A stretch of DNA of 64,000 nt from NCBI RefSeq assembly GCF_001953745.1, contig NZ_LWLN01000001.1:62001-126000 (forward strand), written 5' to 3'. The stretch comes from Natrinema saccharevitans. GTDB lineage: Archaea; Halobacteriota; Halobacteria; Halobacteriales; Natrialbaceae. Under the pieces are notes generated by a model. The model saw only the letters and a list, made by a program, of their open reading frames with translations, was not told where the DNA came from and made no database searches. The position numbers and the translations under genes are program-made. Shown here in pieces: positions 18,242 through 33,860 of this stretch (position 1 is the first letter of the stretch; each line of letters opens with the position of its first letter).

Positions 18242-19330
18242 CTAGCAGTCATCTACGTACGACCCTGCTGTGTATCCCCCGTTAAACGCAACGTTACAAC
18301 CGGTGTAGATCGTTCCATCGACCGTCACATCGTCATTGAACGTGACTGAGTCTCCAACGTAGAGATCTCCCCCAACAGTAACCTCTTTGTTCAGTTTGCT
18401 GTTGTCTCCGATCGAGACGTCACCGCCAGCGCTGACTACTTTGTTTGCAGTGTAGTCGTCTCCTACGGTGAAGTCCCCTGTCGCGTTCACCTTTTTGTTC
18501 GTTTTACTGTTATTACCTAACGAAATATCCCCGCCAGCGTTGATCTCCTTGTTCACTTTGCTGTTATCGCCCATCGAGATGTCTCCACCAGCGGTGACCT
18601 TTCCGTTCGTCTTGCCGCCGTCGCCGATCGAAATATCGCCGCCGACGTTGACCTCTTTGTTCGCAGTGTAGCTACCCCCGGTAGTGAGGCTACCATCTGC
18701 CGTAACTCGACCGTTCGTCTTCCCGTTATCGCCGATCGAGACGTCCCCGCCAGCGGTGACTTCCTTGTTTGCCTTTCCGTTATCGCCGATAAACACGTTT
18801 TCATCGGTGTCGATCCCGTCGTTCGCTTTGCTGCCGTCTTCGACGACGACATCACCGTCGTTCGGTTCATCCGGAGGTCCGCCAGTGCACTCGTAGTCGA
18901 CCGTAACGGGTAATGTCGCTTGCTCGATTCGGAGTGACCCCCCGTCTCCAAACGCCTCGACGACGGTGAGAACGCCGGATTCACTTCCGCCTGTACCTCC
19001 GCCGTCACACGAAATTACGACTGCCGAACTCCCTCCCGCGGGTATCTCGCTTGGCAGTTCTCCCTCGACTCTCAGATCGGACCCCGTAGTATCGGCCAGC
19101 TCGAGTGTCAAATCTGTGCCGGCGTTGTTCCGAATCGAGACGGGAGCCTCGTCGTTCGGTCCATCCAGTGTCAACTGTGTCGAACTAACGCCGATCAACG
19201 CATTGCTACTGGCCGTACTGACACCAACCCCGCGATCCGCCGCCAGCGTACTGAACCCGAATACCGGGCCCGACAGTAGCACCGTTCCCGCGAGAATGAA
19301 CACGACCGCGAGTTTGCTGATCGAATTCAT
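18242..19330 (-). CDS. exported polymer-forming (bactofilin-like) beta-helix protein with DUF1102-like N-terminal module
   Basis: A 362-residue secreted protein. Residues 1-25 are a hydrophobic signal (LAVVFILAGTVLLSGPVFGF). Residues 26-150 begin FSTLAADRGVGVSTASSNAL, the same module that opens the other exported proteins of this locus, and contain two cysteines. From about 161 to 350 there are ten or so tandem 18-residue repeats of the type VSIGDNGKTNGRVTADGS, the Gly/Asn/Asp-turn pattern of a right-handed beta-helix as in bactofilins and polymer-forming proteins. It ends GGYTAGSYVDDC. I chose ATG 19330; an in-frame extension would read through the regulator gene. It starts two bases after the stop of the DUF7344 gene, so they form an operon. 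Likely role: self-assembling surface or matrix polymer (inferred). Confidence 0.8.
   Translation of the reverse strand: MNSISKLAVVFILAGTVLLSGPVFGFSTLAADRGVGVSTASSNALIGVSSTQLTLDGPNDEAPVSIRNNAGTDLTLELADTTGSDLRVEGELPSEIPAGGSSAVVISCDGGGTGGSESGVLTVVEAFGDGGSLRIEQATLPVTVDYECTGGPPDEPNDGDVVVEDGSKANDGIDTDENVFIGDNGKANKEVTAGGDVSIGDNGKTNGRVTADGSLTTGGSYTANKEVNVGGDISIGDGGKTNGKVTAGGDISMGDNSKVNKEINAGGDISLGNNSKTNKKVNATGDFTVGDDYTANKVVSAGGDVSIGDNSKLNKEVTVGGDLYVGDSVTFNDDVTVDGTIYTGCNVAFNGGYTAGSYVDDC
18281..18850 (-). repeat. about ten 54-bp coding tandem repeats
   Basis: The DNA encoding the beta-helix is a tandem array with a 54-bp period (18 codons). Units are diverged at synonymous and some non-synonymous positions but keep ISIGDN-like and NKEV-GGD-like cores. 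Tandem arrays of this sort can gain or lose whole units, which would change filament length without breaking the frame. Confidence 0.8.
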
Positions 19331-19332
19331 AG

Positions 19333-19905
19333 TCACGGCGGTCGTTCCATCTCGCCGAGTCGCATCCGCCGCGTCTGTGTCACGTGGACGATTGCCGACG
19401 CGGCAAACAGCGCGAATACCAGCGTCGCCCATCCCAGCTTCGGGATCGGTTCCGTCGGCACGACCTCGAGCCACAACCCAGCTATCACGACCGCACCGAC
19501 TGCCGACAGGCCTAGATAGTAGACGCCCCACGGGACCGAATCGCCCGGGACGATGTCCAGATAGACGTCCAACTCGGCGGCCTCGTCGGTGAGTTCGATC
19601 GTCCGATCGTCGAACTCGATGACGTCTGCCCGCTCGAGCGTCGGGAGGTGTGTCTGCTGCAGCGAGGTGTAGACCCGCTTTCGCTCGGCGGAGGTGATCT
19701 CCTCGACCTCTTTCTCGAGTTCCCAGGCGGCGACGTGTTCGGCGAGATCGCCCAGCGTGACGGGACCGTCTTCGCGCTTGCAGTAGTGGATGGTGTACCG
19801 TCGGCGCCGGTTGCTCAGGAGGTCGAATATTTCCCCTTCCCTCGATTGCTCGTCGCGGCCCGCCGGATCCGTTTGGGCCGGTTGGCTTTCGCTACTCGTC
19901 GCCAT
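19333..19905 (-). CDS. DUF7344-type winged-helix regulator with two membrane segments
   Basis: A 190-residue protein. Residues about 24-110 form a winged helix that starts with IFDLLSNRRRRYTIHYCKRE, the hallmark of the haloarchaeal DUF7344 group, with the recognition region near LGDLAEHVAAWELEK and a wing around LERADVIEFDDRTIEL. Two hydrophobic helices follow at about 126-148 and 154-175, so it is a membrane-tethered DNA-binding protein. It is two bases upstream of the beta-helix gene and thus probably controls, or is co-expressed with, the exported proteins. DUF7344 proteins recur next to such exported-protein loci in haloarchaea, from memory; the signal it senses is unknown. Confidence 0.82.
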   Translation of the reverse strand: MATSSESQPAQTDPAGRDEQSREGEIFDLLSNRRRRYTIHYCKREDGPVTLGDLAEHVAAWELEKEVEEITSAERKRVYTSLQQTHLPTLERADVIEFDDRTIELTDEAAELDVYLDIVPGDSVPWGVYYLGLSAVGAVVIAGLWLEVVPTEPIPKLGWATLVFALFAASAIVHVTQTRRMRLGEMERPP

Positions 19906-20321: not shown

Positions 20322-20885
20322 TTAGTCCGGAACGCACTCGACGTCGATCTCTCGCTCGAGGCCGACCGTGACGGTGCCGTCGCTGAACACGCCGTCCACA
20401 ATGATTGTCCCGGATTGCTGTTGTTGATCGCCGAATCCCCAGTCCCCCTCTGCAGGACAGCTAAAGTCCCCGAGTACGATGCGAATCCCGTTAGGAGTTT
20501 GATCGTATCGTACTCCGTTTCTGCGAGTCATATCGGGTCCTTGGAAATTAACGGACAACGTTTCCATAGTTAATTCGCCAGATGGTGCGTTATCTTCTAA
20601 CAAAACTGCTTTTCTGTCGTTGTACCGGTAAGAACTGCACCCTCCGAATAGACAGAAACCGCCACCGTTGCTGTCCCCGCTTTCCAGCGTGACCGTCCTG
20701 TCTGAGGTCGAATAATTGAGGCCGAGCAGGGCATCGTCGTCACTGGCCGTTTCGATCTCAACCCCGCGGTCGGCGAGCGTCGCGTCGAACGCGCCGCTCG
20801 AGACGGCGACCAAGATCGCCCCGCTGATGATCAACCCGACACCGAGATAGATGCTCCATCGCATGGTCGTGGGTTTCGAACGCAA
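20322..20885 (-). CDS. exported protein with the shared GAF...ADRGV module (DUF1102-like)
   Basis: A 187-residue protein that starts MRSKPTTMRWSIYLGVGLII, a positively charged signal followed by a hydrophobic segment (about 10-30), then SGAFDATLADRGVEIETASD, which is the same junction found in the beta-helix protein and, in the form GAFSSVEAERTVTVETAGD, in the three plus-strand exported proteins. The mature part is about 155 residues and beta-rich with four Cys (FCLFGGCSS, FSCPAEG, VECVPD), so disulfides are possible outside the cell. There is no twin arginine here, in contrast to the plus-strand paralogues. A start at MRWSIYL (20864) is equally possible. Role inferred from context: minor subunit or regulator of the fibre. 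Confidence 0.7.
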   Translation of the reverse strand: MRSKPTTMRWSIYLGVGLIISGAILVAVSSGAFDATLADRGVEIETASDDDALLGLNYSTSDRTVTLESGDSNGGGFCLFGGCSSYRYNDRKAVLLEDNAPSGELTMETLSVNFQGPDMTRRNGVRYDQTPNGIRIVLGDFSCPAEGDWGFGDQQQQSGTIIVDGVFSDGTVTVGLEREIDVECVPD

Positions 20886-21394: not shown

Positions 21395-22027
21395 ATGAGA
21401 TTGAATCGACGCAACGTGTTGCTCGGATTGGGTACGATCGTCGCCGGCGGCGGTGCTGCACTAGGAACAGGCGCGTTCAGTAGCGTGGAAGCCGAACGGA
21501 CGGTTACCGTCGAGACTGCTGGTGACGCAAGCGCGTTCCTTGGCCTCGACGCAGATGATGCGTACGATGTCGGTACTGATACGGTCCAACTCAACCTCGG
21601 GTCCGGCGGGAACGATGCCGACGGGAGCGGCCTCAATATCGACGCCAAAACAAGCTGGGAACCGATGCTTGCCGTCCAGAACAACGGAACGCAGAAGGTA
21701 ACGGAGCTAGAGTTCAGCTACGATGTCGCCAATAATGACGGGAGCGGCAATACCTTTAGCCGAGTCGAGGTCGGCAGTGTAACAGCCGATAGTAATGAAA
21801 TCGGAATCGAATTTCAGTACCGTGGCGATCACTCCTTCGGGAGTACCGATGGGTTCGAGCATGGGAGTTCCGAGTCGTCGAAAAGCAACGAGCCGACTTC
21901 CGGAAATCCATTGAACACTACCAATATTGCTGCTTACGATCTCGTCATCGATACGCGTGGAAGCAACGTCGACTCGAGTACGTCACTCGACGTGACCGTG
22001 ACGATCACCGCGTCGACCGAAACGTAA
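21395..22027 (+). CDS. exported protein A, twin-arginine/SipW-type signal (DUF1102-like)
   Basis: A 210-residue protein. The start MRLNRRNVLLGLGTIVAGGG is a twin-arginine signal; the hydrophobic core leads to GTGAFSSVEAERTVTVETAG, where VEA-like residues offer a signal-peptidase site. The mature domain (about 40-210) is beta-rich and acidic, with Gly/Ser/Asn-rich loops (GSSESSKSNEPTSGNPLN) and ends in alternating DVTVTITAS. The next gene begins at the final base of its stop (TAATG overlap), so translation is coupled. Preceded by the 16-base element. Inferred role: structural subunit of an extracellular fibre; a TasA-type fold is a guess that structure prediction could test. Confidence 0.78.
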   Translation: MRLNRRNVLLGLGTIVAGGGAALGTGAFSSVEAERTVTVETAGDASAFLGLDADDAYDVGTDTVQLNLGSGGNDADGSGLNIDAKTSWEPMLAVQNNGTQKVTELEFSYDVANNDGSGNTFSRVEVGSVTADSNEIGIEFQYRGDHSFGSTDGFEHGSSESSKSNEPTSGNPLNTTNIAAYDLVIDTRGSNVDSSTSLDVTVTITASTET

Positions 22028-22590
22028 TGAAAAGACGAAACGTCGTACTCGGCCTCGGGACGATCGTTGCGGGCGGGGGTGCCGCGCTCGGAACGGGCGC
22101 GTTCAGCAGCGTGGAAGCCGAGCGGACGGTTACCGTGGAAACCGCCGGCGACGCGAACGCGTTTCTCGCACTCACGCCGGCAAGCGGCGCAAGCGAGTAC
22201 GTCGACGATAGCGGAGACACAATCGAAATCGACATCACCGGCAACTCGGAGGGCGCAGATGGTATCAACCAGAACGCCCTCACATCGTTCGACGAACTCG
22301 TCACCGTCACGAATCAGGGGACGAACGACGTCAATAGTATCACGCTCACGATCCAGGGGGACAACGGCGAGGACGAGCTCCTGACGCCGACCCCGACGAG
22401 TTTCGGTGATGGCGATTTCCCCGATAACGGTAATGCGTCCGCGTTAGCGCCCGGCGAGGCGGTCTCGTTCGGCCTCGACATCGAACTTCGCGCGGACCAG
22501 ATCGACGACACCGTGGCCGCATACGACAACGGCGATATCGACAGCGCCAATTTCGAGCCGGCGATTCTGATCGACGCGACGGCGGCGTGA
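22027..22590 (+). CDS. exported protein B, twin-arginine/SipW-type signal (DUF1102-like)
   Basis: A 187-residue paralogue of protein A. The first 45 residues (MKRRNVVLGLGTIVAGGGAA and GTGAFSSVEAERTVTVETAG) are nearly identical to those of A, while the mature domains have diverged, with strands such as ELVTVTNQGTNDVNSITLTI and ALAPGEAVSFGLDIELRADQ. It starts at base 22027, overlapping the stop of A by one base. After it comes a 280-base gap that carries the second copy of the 16-base element. Identity limited to the signal module suggests selection for one export and processing route, with different mature subunits. Confidence 0.78.
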   Translation: MKRRNVVLGLGTIVAGGGAALGTGAFSSVEAERTVTVETAGDANAFLALTPASGASEYVDDSGDTIEIDITGNSEGADGINQNALTSFDELVTVTNQGTNDVNSITLTIQGDNGEDELLTPTPTSFGDGDFPDNGNASALAPGEAVSFGLDIELRADQIDDTVAAYDNGDIDSANFEPAILIDATAA

Positions 22591-22871: not shown

Positions 22872-23471
22872 ATGTCAATGAACAGACGAAACGTGTTGCT
22901 CGGACTCGGAACGATCGTCGCCGGCGGTGGCGCTGCGCTCGGCTCGGGCGCGTTCAGCCAGGCGGAAGCACAGCGGTCGGTTAGCGTTTCCCTCGAGGGT
23001 GACTCGAGCGGATTACTCCGGCCCACTGTTAACGACGGTGACTACGAGGGAGTCGACAGCACTACCACGACAGAAAGCGACAATGGGAGCGTCAGCGTCA
23101 CGCAGATCAATTTCGTCGGTATCAACGACGAATCCGTGTTCGCTTTCGATGACGTTCTAACGATTGGCCTCCAAGATGAAACTGGCAACGAAGTCAGTGG
23201 GACCTTCGATATCAGTATCTCCACTGATTCTGGTAGTGTCGCAGTCTACGGGGATAGCTTCCCCACTGATGGACCTCGTGGCGACGTGACGGATGCCGAA
23301 CTCGGAACAATCTCCGCTAGTGACTCCGGCTCAGCTACAGACGGTTCAAGCGTTTCCGCTGGTATTGCTATCAACACGAATTCAACTAACAGTGATGATC
23401 GATTCGATGGTACACTGAATGAGGATAGTACCGCCGATATAACTATCACTGCTCAGCAGCAGGACTCCTGA
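22872..23471 (+). CDS. exported protein C, twin-arginine/SipW-type signal (DUF1102-like)
   Basis: A 199-residue third paralogue, beginning MSMNRRNVLLGLGTIVAGGG and GSGAFSQAEAQRSVSVSLEG. The mature domain is again beta-rich and very rich in Ser, Asp, Gly and Thr (for example GTFDISISTDSGSVAVYGDS). No cysteine is seen and there is no C-terminal anchor, so it should be released or assembled outside. It has its own upstream element, in contrast with A-B, which form one unit. The following CARDB gene starts 108 bases downstream. Confidence 0.78.
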   Translation: MSMNRRNVLLGLGTIVAGGGAALGSGAFSQAEAQRSVSVSLEGDSSGLLRPTVNDGDYEGVDSTTTTESDNGSVSVTQINFVGINDESVFAFDDVLTIGLQDETGNEVSGTFDISISTDSGSVAVYGDSFPTDGPRGDVTDAELGTISASDSGSATDGSSVSAGIAINTNSTNSDDRFDGTLNEDSTADITITAQQQDS

Positions 23472-23578: not shown

Positions 23579-24718
23579 ATGCTATCGTCACGAACGCTGC
23601 TCGTCATGGCCGCCGTCTGCTTTCTCTTTACGCTCGCGATTCCGACGGCGGCACTGACGGTCGGGGAAGACCGGACGTCGGACGAGGTCGTCCTCGAGCC
23701 GACGAGCAGCTACGCGGAACTCGACGGGTCGAACGAACTGGTCCTCGACTTCGACGGGTTCAACGGAAACACGGCGTTCGTGACTCGAGACGTGTTCACG
23801 ATCACGGTCGGCGAGGATGCCGACGATATCGAGTCGGTTTGGATCGAGCACGATGTCGAGGGCGTGGCCTTCTACGCGGACGGGAGCGAGATCACTCCGG
23901 AATCGCGACTCGAACTGTCCCCGGGCGACTCGCAGACCGTGGATGTTACCGTCGATACCCACGTCGCCAAATCGACGACCGAGACGTTCTCGGTCGTGGT
24001 CGAGTACGAGGGTGACGAAGTCGATGATGACAGTGGCAGCGACTCTTTCATCTACGGCTCGAGCCTGTCCGTCTCGTCGACGACCGTCGAGGCGGGCGAG
24101 ACGGTAACGGTCAACGCGACCTACCGAAACGACGGCGATGGATGGGGGACCGAGACGGCTCGGCTGACGGTCGATGGAACCGTCGTCGACCAGCGGACGG
24201 TCGCGCTCTCGGCGGGCGAAAAACAGACGGTCAGTTTCGAGCGCCGGATGGAGTGGCCCGGCACGTACGAGGTCGGTATCGAGGGGATCGGGCAGCAGTC
24301 GGTGACCGTCGAGGGGCCGCAAGTCGAGGTCTCGAGCGCCGCCGTTGCCGATACCACGATCACCGCCGGGGAGACCACGGACGTACAGACGACGGTCCGG
24401 AACCCGTCCGACGGGTCGCTCGAGCGCACGCTCGAGCTGTCGGTCGACGGGATCGTCGTCGATACCCGAACCGTCTCGATCCCCGCCGGCGGCGAGCGGA
24501 CGGTGGCCTTCCGGCGATCGTTCGACGAGCCGGGGACCTACGCGATCGCGGTCAGCGGCGTCGATGCGGGGACGGTGACGGTCGGGGAGCGGGCCGGATT
24601 CGACGTTCGGAACCGCGAGCTATCGCCTGCGACGACGGCGGCGCTCGCGCCGCCGGCGACGGCCGGATTGCTGTTCCTGGCGGTCGCCGCGAACCGGCGC
24701 TGGTCGTTCGTCCGGTAG
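23579..24718 (+). CDS. membrane-anchored exported protein with two CARDB-like domains
   Basis: A 379-residue protein. Residues 1-26 are a Sec signal (MLSSRTLLVMAAVCFLFTLA). Residues about 27-160 are a beta domain resembling the mature part of the small exported proteins (ELVLDFDGFNGNTAFVTRDV). Two Ig-like CARDB domains follow, about 165-250 (SVSSTTVEAGETVTVNATYR) and 252-335 (VADTTITAGETTDVQTTVRN), each ending in a FERRMEWPGTYEVGIEG-like strand pair. A hydrophobic helix near the C-terminus (about 350-370) and a basic tail (NRRWSFVR) would anchor it in the membrane. Likely the cell-bound base or adhesin of the fibre (inferred). It is followed by the signal peptidase gene. Confidence 0.75.
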   Translation: MLSSRTLLVMAAVCFLFTLAIPTAALTVGEDRTSDEVVLEPTSSYAELDGSNELVLDFDGFNGNTAFVTRDVFTITVGEDADDIESVWIEHDVEGVAFYADGSEITPESRLELSPGDSQTVDVTVDTHVAKSTTETFSVVVEYEGDEVDDDSGSDSFIYGSSLSVSSTTVEAGETVTVNATYRNDGDGWGTETARLTVDGTVVDQRTVALSAGEKQTVSFERRMEWPGTYEVGIEGIGQQSVTVEGPQVEVSSAAVADTTITAGETTDVQTTVRNPSDGSLERTLELSVDGIVVDTRTVSIPAGGERTVAFRRSFDEPGTYAIAVSGVDAGTVTVGERAGFDVRNRELSPATTAALAPPATAGLLFLAVAANRRWSFVR

Positions 24719-24829: not shown

Positions 24830-26008
24830 ATGACAAACGCGACGCTCGTCACGCGGGGGCTCGGTGCCCTCCTCGCGCTGGTCGTAATCTTGCTGGTGGT
24901 CGGCCAGCTGCTGGGTCAGCCGATCCTGCTGGGCTACGTCGCGACCGGCAGCATGGAGCCGAAAATCGACGCCGGCGACGGCTTCGTCGCCGTGCCCAGC
25001 GTCGCCGCCGGCTCGGTCGAGGAAGGGGACGTGGTGGTATTTCAGGCGCGGGATCTCAACGGCGGCGGGCTGACGACCCACCGCGTCGTCGACGAGACCG
25101 AGGAGGGTTACGTCACGAAAGGGGACGCCAACCCCTTTACCGATCAGGACGGCGGCGAACCCCACGTCACGGAGGGACAGATCGTCGCCAAAGCCCTGCA
25201 GATAAACGGCGCGGTCGTGACGATCCCGTATCTGGGCACCGCGATCATGGGGTTCCAGAGCGCTGCGCAGGGAAGCGTCGAGACGGTCACGTCGGTGTTC
25301 GGCGTGACCAGCGGCTCCTCGAACGGGCTCGGTGCCTTGCTGGTCGGGGTCGGGGTCGCGATGCTCGGGTTCGGGACCCTCCTCGAGCGGCTCGGACCGG
25401 GTCGCCGCGAGACGAGTCGGTCCCGTTCGCGGGAGAACGTGATCGCGTTCTGGACGGCGCTGGGACTCGTCTTGCTCGTGTTCGTGATCTTCGCGACTGC
25501 GGCGATGGTCGTCCCGTCTGGCACCACCGAGTACGGTCTCATCAGTTCCGAGTCGCCCACCGACGATCCACAGATCGTTGCGCCCGGCGAAACGGCGGAA
25601 CTGACACGGACGGTCGACAACGCCGGCTATCTGCCGATCGTGGTGGCTCACGAGGCAGAAAGCGGCGGTATCGGCGTCGAGCCGCGGTCTCGGACGATCG
25701 GGATTCGTGACAGTGGGGAGGCGACGGTGACGCTGTCGGCCCCCGAGCAGACGGGCGAGTACACGCGCCATCTCGGCGAGTACCGGTATCTCGCCGTGTT
25801 GCCCCCGTCGGTGCTGCTCTGGCTCCACGACATCCACCCGCTTGCCGCTATCGGGGCGGTCAACGCCGTCATCGTCTCGGTCGCGGTCGCGATCGTTCTC
25901 CTGCTGTTCGGTAGCGGCGATATCCGGGTCCGGTCCGCAGGGGGTCACGTCCCCCTCTCGACTCGCATTCAGCGTCGCGCTCGGCGCTGGTTCCGTGATC
26001 GGAAATAA
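24830..26008 (+). CDS. signal peptidase I (ER/SipW type, S26B) with extra membrane and outer beta domain
   Basis: A 392-residue enzyme. The catalytic part (1-150) has a membrane anchor (about 10-35), the nucleophile Ser41 in TGSMEPKI and His84 in TTHRVVD in place of the bacterial Lys, which is the Ser-His dyad of archaeal, ER and SipW-like peptidases; TKGDANPFTD holds the conserved Asp box. Unusually, the protein then continues with two membrane helices (about 166-186 and 205-227), a beta-domain outside (VAPGETAELTRTVDNAGYLP) and two more helices (about 318-350). The start at ATG 24830 skips 26 upstream codons. It sits directly after the exported genes, so the small proteins are the likely substrates. 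Confidence 0.88.
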   Translation: MTNATLVTRGLGALLALVVILLVVGQLLGQPILLGYVATGSMEPKIDAGDGFVAVPSVAAGSVEEGDVVVFQARDLNGGGLTTHRVVDETEEGYVTKGDANPFTDQDGGEPHVTEGQIVAKALQINGAVVTIPYLGTAIMGFQSAAQGSVETVTSVFGVTSGSSNGLGALLVGVGVAMLGFGTLLERLGPGRRETSRSRSRENVIAFWTALGLVLLVFVIFATAAMVVPSGTTEYGLISSESPTDDPQIVAPGETAELTRTVDNAGYLPIVVAHEAESGGIGVEPRSRTIGIRDSGEATVTLSAPEQTGEYTRHLGEYRYLAVLPPSVLLWLHDIHPLAAIGAVNAVIVSVAVAIVLLLFGSGDIRVRSAGGHVPLSTRIQRRARRWFRDRK

Positions 26009-26170: not shown

Positions 26171-27355
26171 ATGATCGATAACCCGCGTCTCGAGTTGCTG
26201 TTGGCCAAGCGCGGTCGGACCATCGTGATCGCACTGATCGCGATCGGCGTCCTGTCGATCGCCGCGACGGGGTGGGCCGTCGCCAACCCGGAAACGACGA
26301 CCGCCCCGCAGTACACCGAGGAACGCGTGACGGTCGAGGGAAGTACCAGCGCCGTCGTCACCGAGAGCGGAACGCTCTGGCCGGAGGGCCAGCGGCTCTC
26401 GGACAGTTCCGTCTACCTGCTGAACGCGACGCCGGAGCTGACTGTCGAGGCCGAAACGCGGTTGCGAAACGAGACCGGCGGGACGCCCGTCGAGGACGGG
26501 GACGTGACCCACGAGGTCTCGATGCGTTTCCAGGCGACCCGTGACGGGTCCCCCTTCTGGAACGACACCACGACGGTACTGCGCGAGTCGCCCTCGGTCG
26601 AGAACGGCGTCGCCACGTCGAACGCGACGATCGACGTCGAATCTTACCGCCGACAACAGCGGCAACTCGAGCGCGAACTCGGCGGGATCGGGACGGTCGA
26701 ACTTGCAGCGGTGCTTCACACCGAGTACGACACCGGCACCCATCAGGGGACGCTCACGACCACCGCGCCGATGGAGATCACCGACGAGGCCTACTGGCTC
26801 GAGGGCGAACTGTCGGAGTCGACGCCACACCGCTACCGCAGCGGGACCGAGCGGACGACCACGTCCAGAAGTCCGGCGCTGATCGGCGGCCTGTCGCTGC
26901 TGGGGACGCTGTCGCTCGCCGGCGCGGCACTGGTCGTGCGCCGGTCGCCGGGCGATCTCGAGGCCGCTCGCCGGGCGCTCCACGAACAGCGCTACGCCGA
27001 GTGGATCTCGCGGGGCTCGATCCCGATGTGGATCGGCGACTACCACGTCTCGCTCGATACGCTCGAGGACGTCGTCGACGTCGCGATCGACACCAACGAG
27101 CGCGTCGTCCACGATACCCAGCGCGGGCTGTTCGCGGTCGTCAACGACGGCGTCGTCTACTACTACAGCGACCGCGGGCTCTGGGAGGAGACCGCGTGGC
27201 CCGAGATGGATCTGGAGGCGAATCCGGCCGTCATCGACGGCGACGGCGAACTCCCCACGACGGACCTGTCGGCACTCGACACGAGCAACGAGTTCGCTGC
27301 ACCCGACGATCCGGACGGGTTCGAGGACGACGAAGAGGTCTGGGAACAGCTCTGA
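26171..27355 (+). CDS. DUF5305 family membrane protein
   Basis: A 394-residue protein with one N-terminal helix (about 16-38, RTIVIALIAIGVLSIAATGW), an extracytoplasmic domain of about 200 residues (for example TEERVTVEGSTSAVVTESGT), a second helix at about 238-262 (LIGGLSLLGTLSLAGAALVV) and a cytoplasmic C-terminal domain of 130 residues (ARRALHEQRYAEWISRGSIP). This architecture is the DUF5305 family, which I associate with haloarchaeal SipW-type loci. The function is not known; a two-sided membrane protein could help assembly or sense the outside. Acidic, unstructured end (DGFEDDEEVWEQL). Confidence 0.8.
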   Translation: MIDNPRLELLLAKRGRTIVIALIAIGVLSIAATGWAVANPETTTAPQYTEERVTVEGSTSAVVTESGTLWPEGQRLSDSSVYLLNATPELTVEAETRLRNETGGTPVEDGDVTHEVSMRFQATRDGSPFWNDTTTVLRESPSVENGVATSNATIDVESYRRQQRQLERELGGIGTVELAAVLHTEYDTGTHQGTLTTTAPMEITDEAYWLEGELSESTPHRYRSGTERTTTSRSPALIGGLSLLGTLSLAGAALVVRRSPGDLEAARRALHEQRYAEWISRGSIPMWIGDYHVSLDTLEDVVDVAIDTNERVVHDTQRGLFAVVNDGVVYYYSDRGLWEETAWPEMDLEANPAVIDGDGELPTTDLSALDTSNEFAAPDDPDGFEDDEEVWEQL

Positions 27356-32041: not shown

Positions 32042-32767
32042 ATGGCCGCAACAGTTGGCCCAGAATCCATTTGGCTGTGGATCGGCACGATCGGAATGAC
32101 CCTCGGAACCCTGTATTTCGTCGGGCGCGGACGCGGCGTTCGCGACCGAAAGATGCAGGAGTTCTACATCATCACGATCTTCATTACGACCATCGCCGCC
32201 GCGATGTACTTCGCGATGGCGACCGGCTTCGGCGTCACCGAAGTCATGGTCGGCGACGAGGCGCTCACGATCTACTGGGCGCGCTATGCCGACTGGCTGT
32301 TCACGACGCCGCTGTTGCTGCTCGACCTCTCGCTGCTGGCCGGGGCGAACCGAAACACGATCGCGACGCTGATCGGACTCGACGTCTTCATGATCGGGAC
32401 CGGTCTGATCGCGGCGTTCGCGTCCACCCCGGGCACCCGGATCGCCTGGTGGGCGATCAGCACCGGCGCTCTGCTCGCCCTGCTGTACGTCCTCGTCGGG
32501 ACGCTCTCCGAGAACGCGCGCAGTCAGTCCCCCGAGGTCGCATCGCTGTTCGGGCGACTCCGCAACCTGGTTATCGTGCTGTGGTTCCTCTACCCGGTGG
32601 TCTGGATCCTCGGCACGGAGGGGACGTTCGGCATCCTCCCACTGTACTGGGAAACCGCCGCGTTCATGGTACTCGATCTCTCGGCGAAGGTCGGATTCGG
32701 AGTGGTCCTGCTCCGGAGTCGCTCCGTCCTCGAGCGAGTCACGACGCCGACGGCCGCGCCGGCCTGA
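32042..32767 (+). CDS. bop: bacteriorhodopsin, light-driven outward proton pump
   Basis: A 241-residue seven-helix retinal protein. The key residues (Halobacterium salinarum numbering in brackets) are all there: Arg81 [82], Asp84 [85] and Asp95 [96] in ARYADWLFTTPLLLLDL, Asp114 [115] in IGLDVFMIGTG, Glu193 [194] and Glu204 [204] in the release group, Asp212 [212] and the retinal Schiff-base Lys216 [216] in MVLDLSAKVGFGVVLL. Asp95 (proton donor) plus Asp84 (acceptor) show a true proton pump, not a sensor. Leu93-type residues in LLLLDL fit green absorption. The N-terminus MAATVGPESIW is short, without the long Halobacterium leader. It is followed by hop, crtY and brp/blh on the same strand. Confidence 0.97.
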   Translation: MAATVGPESIWLWIGTIGMTLGTLYFVGRGRGVRDRKMQEFYIITIFITTIAAAMYFAMATGFGVTEVMVGDEALTIYWARYADWLFTTPLLLLDLSLLAGANRNTIATLIGLDVFMIGTGLIAAFASTPGTRIAWWAISTGALLALLYVLVGTLSENARSQSPEVASLFGRLRNLVIVLWFLYPVVWILGTEGTFGILPLYWETAAFMVLDLSAKVGFGVVLLRSRSVLERVTTPTAAPA

Positions 32768-32923
32768 GATCGCACATCGACTCCCGGCGATCGGCTTCGC
32801 GACGCTTGCCTCGGAGCCGACCCGCGACGGACTTCTCTTACCGGTTCGAACGCGAGTACCCCGCTGCTGGCACCCGAACCGACGCGGTAGCGGAACCTCG
32901 GCCGCTTTTCAGTCACTGCTCGT

Positions 32924-32956
32924 GAGTGTCTCTCTCGAGACGGACACTCGTTTATG
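32924..32956 (+). promoter_or_regulatory. palindrome plus TATA box before hop
   Basis: An imperfect 26-base palindrome at 32924-32949, with GAGTGTC and GACACTC as outer arms and GTCTC / GAGAC as inner arms. It is followed at once by TTTATG at 32951-32956, a TATA box about 29-34 bases before the hop ATG. A dimeric regulator bound here would touch the core promoter. Confidence 0.55.
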
Positions 32957-32984
32957 TGTCGCGCCAGTGAAGTGATCCGCGTCC

Positions 32985-33860
32985 ATGCAGTCAGTCCACG
33001 ACCTCGGTTTTCGCGCCCAGCACGCCGTCCTGCAAAACGGCGCGGCGGATCGGGAACTATTCGAGTACGTCTTCGGCGGTGACAACACCTTGCTCGCGCT
33101 GTCGTTCGTCCTCAACATCGCCCTCGCGGGGATCACCATCCTCGCGATCGCTTACCTCGGACGGCATCTGACGGCCCCCCGTTCGAAGGCGATCGCGACG
33201 GCCCTGATGCTGATCTCGATCGTTTCGATCTCGAGTTACACCGGGCTCACGTCGGGGCTGACGCTGGGTGTCGTCGAGATGCCACCGGGACACCCCGCCG
33301 CGGGTGCGACGACGGCCGGTCAGGACGGCGTCCTGACGATGTGGGGTCGATACCTCACGTGGACGTTCTCGACCCCGTTCATCCTGATCGCACTCGGGAT
33401 GATAGCCGGGTCGGACTGGACGAAGATCCTCACGGCCTGTGCGTTTACGATCGCGATGTGTGTCACTGGCCTCGCCGCCGCGTTGACCACGTCCTCGCTG
33501 GTGCTTCGCTGGTGGTGGTTTGCCCTGTCAACGATCTTCTTCCTCGTGATCGTCTACATCATCCTCGTCGACTGGACCGCCGAGGCGTCGGCGACGGGAA
33601 CGGCCGATCTGTTCCGGACGCTGAAACTCCTCACCGTCGTCGGCTGGTTCGGCTATCCGATCCTCTGGGCGCTCGGCGTCGAGGGATTCGCCGTGCTGGA
33701 TGTCACCGTCACCTCCTGGGGGTACAGCATCCTCGACGTGATCACGAAGTACGTCGTGACCGGCGTCGCCATGCTCTACGTCGTCGACGAACCCGACGCG
33801 ATCACCGGCGAGGCGGACTACGGCACCAGCATGTCCGGATTCGACCCGGGCGACGACTGA
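32985..33860 (+). CDS. hop: halorhodopsin, light-driven inward chloride pump
   Basis: A 291-residue retinal protein. The motif YLTWTFSTPFILIALG has Thr125, Ser129 and Ala136 where bacteriorhodopsin has Asp85, Thr89 and Asp96, which is the TSA pattern of chloride pumps. The Schiff-base Lys is 255 and the counter-ion Asp 251 in SWGYSILDVITKYVVTGVAM; Arg122 precedes the Thr. There is a 25-residue N-terminal extension before helix A, as in other halorhodopsins. The promoter palindrome and TATA are separate from the bop promoter, so chloride pumping can be controlled separately. Convergent or overlapping genes are absent. Confidence 0.95.
   Translation: MQSVHDLGFRAQHAVLQNGAADRELFEYVFGGDNTLLALSFVLNIALAGITILAIAYLGRHLTAPRSKAIATALMLISIVSISSYTGLTSGLTLGVVEMPPGHPAAGATTAGQDGVLTMWGRYLTWTFSTPFILIALGMIAGSDWTKILTACAFTIAMCVTGLAAALTTSSLVLRWWWFALSTIFFLVIVYIILVDWTAEASATGTADLFRTLKLLTVVGWFGYPILWALGVEGFAVLDVTVTSWGYSILDVITKYVVTGVAMLYVVDEPDAITGEADYGTSMSGFDPGDD

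Follow-up and report, generated by a model that had tools for sequence, protein, structure and literature searches.

Organization of the locus

The window, the whole stretch of DNA analyzed here, covers 64,000 nt of Natrinema saccharevitans (assembly GCF_001953745.1, contig NZ_LWLN01000001.1, positions 62,001-126,000 of the forward strand). The genome containing it (G000) is haloarchaeal and measures 3.98 Mb. Coordinates below are positions in the window unless another source is named. The plus strand encodes three twin-Arg exported fimbrial-subunit-like proteins (21395..22027, 22027..22590, and 22872..23471), an exported CARDB protein that has a membrane helix at its C-terminus (23579..24718; Pfam, hydropathy), an extended archaeal signal peptidase I (24830..26008), and a DUF5305 protein (26171..27355). 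The CARDB protein gene thus sits between the three subunit-like genes and the peptidase gene.

The peptidase, recognized by its reading frame, a profile match, and alignment, consists of a TIGR02228 core and an Ig-bearing extension. It is encoded by a single open reading frame of 392 aa that runs from the ATG at 24830 to the stop codon ending at 26008, as the sequence-only reading of this DNA had proposed. The ORF caller set the start at a GTG (24752), 26 codons 5' of this ATG; the homologues begin at the ATG. The closest named relatives are encoded by Natrinema species (identity up to 95%).

All parts of the protein lie on the plus strand. Membrane helix 1 (residues 10-28; 24857..24913; hydropathy) leads into the catalytic part (residues 28-134; 24911..25231). 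Membrane helices 2 (residues 167-185) and 3 (residues 210-228) follow with a basic loop between them (25328..25513; hydropathy and AlphaFold2 model). The predicted outer Ig-like domain (residues 229-321; 25514..25792) is delimited by the model, a fold match, and the alignment, and it runs into a juxtamembrane segment, RYLAVLPPSVLLWLHDIHP (residues 319-337; 25784..25840), and membrane helix 4 (residues 341-359; 25850..25906; hydropathy). An order of two helices, an Ig-like stretch, and two more helices had been suggested for the extension; hydropathy and the AlphaFold2 model agree, the last two being a short juxtamembrane helix and a single membrane helix. A hydropathy scan over the 54 loci described below gives four membrane helices in 34 loci, five in 10, three in eight, and two in two.

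Catalytic core and family membership

The window peptidase scores 61.2 bits with TIGR02228 (archaeal signal peptidase I, S26B type), above the cut-off of 51.85, and two relatives from outside the class reach 65.9 and 69.4 bits. No substitution of S41, H84, D99, or D105 occurs in the 54 distinct haloarchaeal loci, which bears out the Ser-His catalytic part assigned earlier; we take S41 and H84, together with the acidic D99 and D105, to be the catalytic residues of the signal peptidase family. The name SipW, also given earlier, is only roughly right. SipW of Bacillus (NF046067), which works with TasA and TapA, is likewise an archaeal-type Ser/His peptidase in an operon with fibre-subunit-like proteins. 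However, the window peptidase reaches 43.2 bits against a cut-off of 190 with this model, is 392 aa long with extra helices and an Ig domain, and is surrounded by twin-Arg Taf/pilin-like proteins, while a peptidase closer to SipW is encoded elsewhere in the genome. The solved human SEC11A and SEC11C match at E-values of 3.4e-5 and 4e-5; Sec11 thus has the catalytic part in common with the window peptidase, but its chains have 177-211 residues and are matched over the core alone.

Curated families (Pfam/NCBIfam) also cover the core only. The extension adds 185 residues compared with a 207-aa SipW-like peptidase of the same genome and about 234 compared with the 158-position TIGR02228 model; the earlier figure of about 230 residues beyond what SipW needs is a fair one, its exact value depending on the yardstick. 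On the level of alignments and profiles, the window protein is shown to combine an intact Ser/His/Asp signal-peptidase core with a conserved helix extension that bears one outer Ig-like domain, and to be linked with DUF5305 and with exported pilin-like proteins of the twin-Arg type.

Conservation of the extension across haloarchaea

Fourteen loci in named genomes were found by matching the full-length query, and their peptidases align with that of the window over the whole length, with identities down to 41%. Another 40 loci from many families of the class were hand-picked from strong matches among the matches listed. Together with the window, and after removal of L096 (a duplicate of L016), this gives 54 distinct loci. 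The full-length form is present in 54 out of 54, a count that is no measure of the rate at which the extension is lost, as the loci were mostly chosen from strong full-length matches. The proteins are 367-395 aa long in 49 loci and longer in five, where the upstream start of the caller was retained. The extension, rather than being absent or variable in close homologues from the same locus type, is thus kept throughout, and on this point the sequence-only reading was not refuted.

Mean column identity over the 54 loci is 0.80 in the core, 0.66 in the juxtamembrane segment (the most conserved part of the extension in the alignment), 0.60 in the Ig part, and 0.45-0.58 in the other helices, loop, and tail of the extension. 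Conservation within the peptidase is lowest in its C-terminal tail and in the loop that joins helices 2 and 3. Five residues of the extension are invariant (N264, G266, G309, and Y320 in the Ig-like domain, and P337), and R319, L324, P325, and H336 are present in 53 loci. Comparison of the window with nine relatives yielded pN/pS values of 0.04-0.42 for the Ig part, below every membrane segment in all nine comparisons; relative to the core (0.15-0.25), the Ig value is lower in two comparisons and higher in seven. As judged from these substitution patterns, the extension is under purifying selection, the Ig part included.

The coverage of the core alone by curated families would suit an ordinary SipW that carries lineage baggage, i.e., an extension without a present role. 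This explanation is already largely refuted, and we consider it highly implausible, given the purifying selection on the Ig part and the retention of the extension throughout the 54 loci as well as in some loci outside the class.

In a wider search, 254 out of 292 genomes of the class contain a peptidase match, 230 of them at E < 1e-20 and 24 weaker. Seven of the 24 weak genomes were re-searched: six have core-only matches and one (G234) matches at residues 207-295 only. Ten of the 230 strong genomes with an intermediate score were also re-searched, and nine keep both parts in one frame. In eight of these, a single open frame of 334-382 aa covers both halves, and G156 showed the core only on the first re-search and both parts on a later look at the locus. 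The tenth, G224, encodes an extended peptidase split by a frameshift.

Predicted structure of the outer domain

An AlphaFold2 model of the single chain was built from a 15-sequence alignment. It contains a seven-strand sandwich at residues 231-321 (block pLDDT 67-87), preceded by helices at 135-157, 166-187, and 199-227 and followed by helices at 326-335 and 337-364, so that the structure prediction is in line with the outer beta domain and flanking helices of the sequence-only reading. Overall pLDDT is 54.8, with low confidence in the catalytic half and at residues 138-203; the poor model of the catalytic half is perhaps due to the alignment having 15 sequences.

Foldseek ranks a PapD-like domain first for the model (E-value 2.1e-3), with MSP-type domains next. 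With VIA, ciliary central-apparatus proteins occupy the top rows (Z up to 8.1, the best row being a ciliary central-pair protein), ahead of MSP domains and WxLIP, which have Z scores of about 7; pilus-chaperone entries make up 22 of the 50 matches listed (Z 6.0-6.8), scores that may reflect merely a common arrangement. The modeled Ig fold most resembles PapD-like and MSP-type domains, pilus chaperones included, with middling scores. The likeness to the PapD-like chaperones FimC, Caf1M, and PapD concerns the fold class (Foldseek, VIA); the window Ig part differs from them in being a single, membrane-bound domain without a sequence match. No TasA, TapA, or 9p0a chain occurs among the Foldseek and VIA matches listed for the model, an absence that carries little weight.

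By sequence, Pfam returned no family up to an E-value of 5 for two Ig segments, CARDB (PF07705) included, and no solved relative of the Ig part was better than E 0.17, PapD-like chaperones included. As for the Ig part being a copy of the CARDB repeats of the neighboring protein, hhalign gave a probability of 37% (E-value 3.6e-4).

Genes linked with the extended peptidase

The DUF5305 protein is identified by Pfam (PF17231; 166.6 bits, gathering cut-off 29). It is predicted by AlphaFold2 to have two helices around an outer beta domain, for which the fold matches are those of a generic beta-sandwich only. DUF5305 lies directly 3' of the peptidase on the same strand in 50 of the 54 loci, the exceptions being L091, L097, L103, and L113. 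It occurs in 239 of the 292 genomes of the class: 229 have both DUF5305 and a strong peptidase match, one has the peptidase only, 10 have DUF5305 only, and 52 have neither; the Fisher value for this co-occurrence ignores the kinship among the genomes.

The three plus-strand subunit-like genes encode a twin-Arg signal that ends in GAFSSVEAER or similar. The first two match the PDB entry 9p0a ‘Pilin’ (E-values of 1.1e-22 and 5.9e-21 for 21395..22027 and 22027..22590, respectively), and alignment of one of the window subunits revealed a near-identical signal peptide in the 9p0a pilin. The third (22872..23471), labeled by NCBIfam profiles and its signal pattern, is TafE/TafA-like below the cut-off. 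All three score 62.7-78.8 bits with the TafE model (cut-off 155) and 46.8-48.7 bits with the TafA model (cut-off 190). They are thus related to the Taf proteins of NCBIfam (TafA, TafC, and TafE), and both genes tested match 9p0a, but all remain below the NCBIfam cut-offs, and no Taf model matches the peptidase or DUF5305. By these profile scores, the window subunits are to be classed as relatives, not members, of the NCBIfam Taf proteins. TIGR04088 (SipW-dependent signal) gave no match among the window neighbors at E-values up to 1.

Across the 54 loci, subunit-like exported genes are found within the fetched stretch in 50, mostly upstream of the peptidase; they are located downstream in L091. 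No such gene was seen in L010, L097, L107, and L119, of which L010 and L107 are near contig ends. The label derives from one round of iterated profiles and includes loose matches: among the 146 subunit-like ORFs, 63 have a strict GAF...(A/S)(E/D/Q)R signal end and 80 a looser twin-basic pattern. Conservation of the extension together with the exported genes, named earlier as a check, is supported by these 50 loci, and the 229 genomes with both a strong peptidase match and DUF5305 show its link with the latter. In view of this linkage, the window enzyme is very probably a fimbria-linked signal peptidase.

The exported CARDB protein is a candidate membrane anchor or fibre base. A signal-bearing ORF with an N-terminal hydrophobic stretch is found just upstream of the peptidase in 41 of the 54 loci, and 35 of the 41 also have a C-terminal membrane helix. 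This arrangement bears on the idea that the Ig domain itself is the fibre base, i.e., that the first subunit docks and stays there, with the peptidase as the anchor of the filament. Two points fit this idea: the predicted domain is Ig-like, lies outside, and is tethered to the membrane, and TasA-type subunits join by strand exchange according to an excerpt of PMC10151520. We nevertheless hold it to be improbable, since a separate membrane-anchored protein, usually encoded just upstream, is the better base candidate, and an enzyme that turns over many subunits would make a poor permanent anchor.

Several further genes were noted in and around these loci. On the minus strand of the window, 20322..20885 encodes an exported protein that is divergent, lacks the twin Arg, and has a signal end of the GAF...ADR type (profiles, signal pattern), possibly a further subunit. 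Also on this strand, opposite to the fimbrial genes, 18242-19531 encodes an exported protein in which a signal end of the same kind is combined with numerous GDxSxGDNxKxN-like repeats; its hexapeptide/bactofilin matches are weak. A DUF7344 winged-helix protein is encoded at 19333-19905 (minus strand), with relatives in 39 out of 55 fetched loci; it is a possible regulator of the fimbrial operon. Two adjacent proteins at 32042-33860 (plus strand) resemble seven-helix rhodopsins by their appearance. Beside the extended peptidase of L017 (2248-5951 of that locus), a 513-aa fimbrial-type exported protein is apparently fused to a CPVCNMM metal-protein-like domain, which we take to be NosL-like and which is seen again in two other ORFs; this stretch contains unread bases. 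The window genome also has an orphan divergent pair of fimbrial-subunit-like genes (L026; G000 C1, about 1,593,000); the ORFs listed beside it include no signal peptidase.

A sensor or regulatory output in the C-terminal half of the peptidase, reporting the subunit load, would be analogous to a second role of SipW of B. subtilis, which is reportedly bifunctional (per a paper title alone), and the DUF7344 relatives would fit it as well. Pfam finds no signalling domain in the peptidase, and its conservation is lowest precisely in the tail at the C-terminus and in the helix 2-3 loop, which makes such a role very improbable.

Relatives outside the class

DUF5305 is present in 44 out of 196 genomes drawn from the phylum, 20 of which are outside the class, and 16 of these 20 loci were fetched. 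Seven (L154, L155, and L157-L161) contain the Ig-bearing architecture in peptidases of 338-354 aa, with subunit-like genes nearby. Their extension aligns with the haloarchaeal one over 224 columns (hhalign probability 99%, E-value 3e-19). Six others (L146-L148 and L150-L152) encode, beside DUF5305, a peptidase with a shorter outer segment of 45-77 residues between the last two helices, compared with 112 in the window peptidase. Against the Ig-bearing sets, hhalign gave this shorter form probabilities of 76% and 90% for two and 0.7% for the third, which is no more than suggestive. As for the remaining three loci, L149 encodes, far from DUF5305, a 384-aa peptidase whose two parts both match weakly, the peptidase of L156 differs in architecture, and L153 gave no peptidase match. 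Four of the six loci with the shorter form also contain a second short peptidase of 151-162 aa.

Given this lineage, the Ig domain appears from the alignments to be dispensable for some DUF5305-peptidase pairs. In one reading, the helices, the juxtamembrane stretch, and DUF5305 form a scaffold that is older, whereas the Ig domain represents a module belonging to the fimbrial branch.

These loci also bear on a rival explanation, in which the Ig domain and the helices serve to keep the peptidase bound to DUF5305 in a complex (perhaps also with Tat) or to shape the active site, the mature subunit being left untouched. DUF5305, which has an outer beta domain of its own, is found in 229 of the 230 genomes in which the peptidase match is strong, and the best conserved stretch of the extension is at the membrane surface rather than in the Ig body. 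However, the six loci with a shorter segment indicate that pairing with DUF5305 needs no Ig domain, and we regard this explanation as unlikely, albeit one to be taken seriously.

An unextended peptidase in the same genome

The second peptidase of the genome, 207 aa long and without the extension, scores 114.5 bits with the SipW model, below the cut-off of 190, and 103.5 bits with TIGR02228. A neighboring protein reaches 35.5 bits with TIGR04088 (above the cut-off of 19) and has a camelysin match above cut-off. This locus (L018; G000 C1, about 2,589,762-2,593,190), with its SipW-like peptidase and TasA/camelysin-type protein, represents a separate fibre-like locus. It also holds a gene that resembles the DUF7344 winged-helix type by eye.

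In a tree of the catalytic parts with 60 chosen rows, a branch with 98/98 support separates 43 extended rows from the SipW-like peptidase of the same genome and most short forms. Two rows labeled as short fall among the extended ones: S_L020, which has a long branch and an unsure place, and S_L172_5677, which is half of a frameshift-split extended copy. The extended/short label needs three changes on the tree, and a single clean origin is not supported. Since the unextended SipW-like peptidase stands beside a TasA-type protein in the same genome, the extension goes with the Taf-like type. We thus read the extended peptidase as a separate subfamily that belongs with Taf-like and not with TasA-like genes, a contrast drawn from one genome.

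Proposed role of the extended peptidase

In B. subtilis, TasA filaments depend on TapA, a chaperone-like starter with an Ig fold, and the tapA gene overlaps the SipW gene, as described in the excerpt of PMC10151520. In B. cereus, a chaperone-like protein, CapP, is required according to an excerpt of PMC13082335. TapA resembles the outer domain of the window peptidase in being an Ig-fold helper that is genetically tied to a peptidase (PMC10151520, same excerpt), a likeness by fold and linkage. It differs in being a separate exported, strand-donating protein, whereas the window Ig domain is part of the peptidase.

We propose that the window enzyme would be the signal peptidase dedicated to a Taf-like fimbrial operon of haloarchaea. 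The exported subunits would go through Tat, and the peptidase would cut them near GAFSSVEA/ER. It may then dock each fresh-cut subunit on its own Ig domain, keeping it at the membrane, from where the N-terminal strand of the docked subunit would be passed to the next one. The Ig domain would in this way be a membrane-tethered counterpart of TapA or of a pilus chaperone, with DUF5305 as a putative membrane partner in the same complex.

A holding role is favored because of the PapD-like fold match and the precedent of Bacillus TapA and B. cereus CapP. Holding of substrates or a part in the fibre base had both been considered for the outer domain in the sequence-only reading; the former fits the PapD-like fold and donor-strand biology, and the latter is the less likely. 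Counted against holding are the middling fold scores, the ciliary proteins in the top VIA rows, the lack of a Pfam family or strong solved sequence relative for the Ig part, and the related lineage in which the outer segment of the peptidase next to DUF5305 is much shorter. On balance, that the Ig domain holds cleaved subunits, as if SipW and TapA were fused, has a chance slightly short of even. The more specific proposal of a built-in fimbrial chaperone, whose Ig domain catches the subunit at signal cleavage and shields its strand groove, thereby coupling processing to donor-strand assembly, is speculative and rather unlikely in this full form.

The peptidase core and the fibre type are already known kinds; the fused outer domain and the linkage to DUF5305 are new as far as we found. 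Searches of the open literature (CC-licensed PMC papers) returned no paper recognized as a description of this enzyme or of the Taf names, and an earlier one may exist. For the Sulfolobus thread, the authors were unable to point to a definite chaperone or usher within the thread gene cluster, as stated in an excerpt of their paper (PMC9715654). For the assembly of archaeal strand-exchange fibres, the conserved, operon-linked outer domain provides a concrete and deletable candidate for an assembly factor; a strong peptidase match is present in 230 of the 292 sampled haloarchaeal genomes, 229 of which also have DUF5305. It would also carry a warning for annotation, as two or more different fibre-linked peptidases that are named ‘signal peptidase I’ can occur in a single haloarchaeal genome. 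If the chaperone is indeed built in, the enzyme would be the archaeal one-piece equivalent of SipW and TapA, or a chaperone without an usher.
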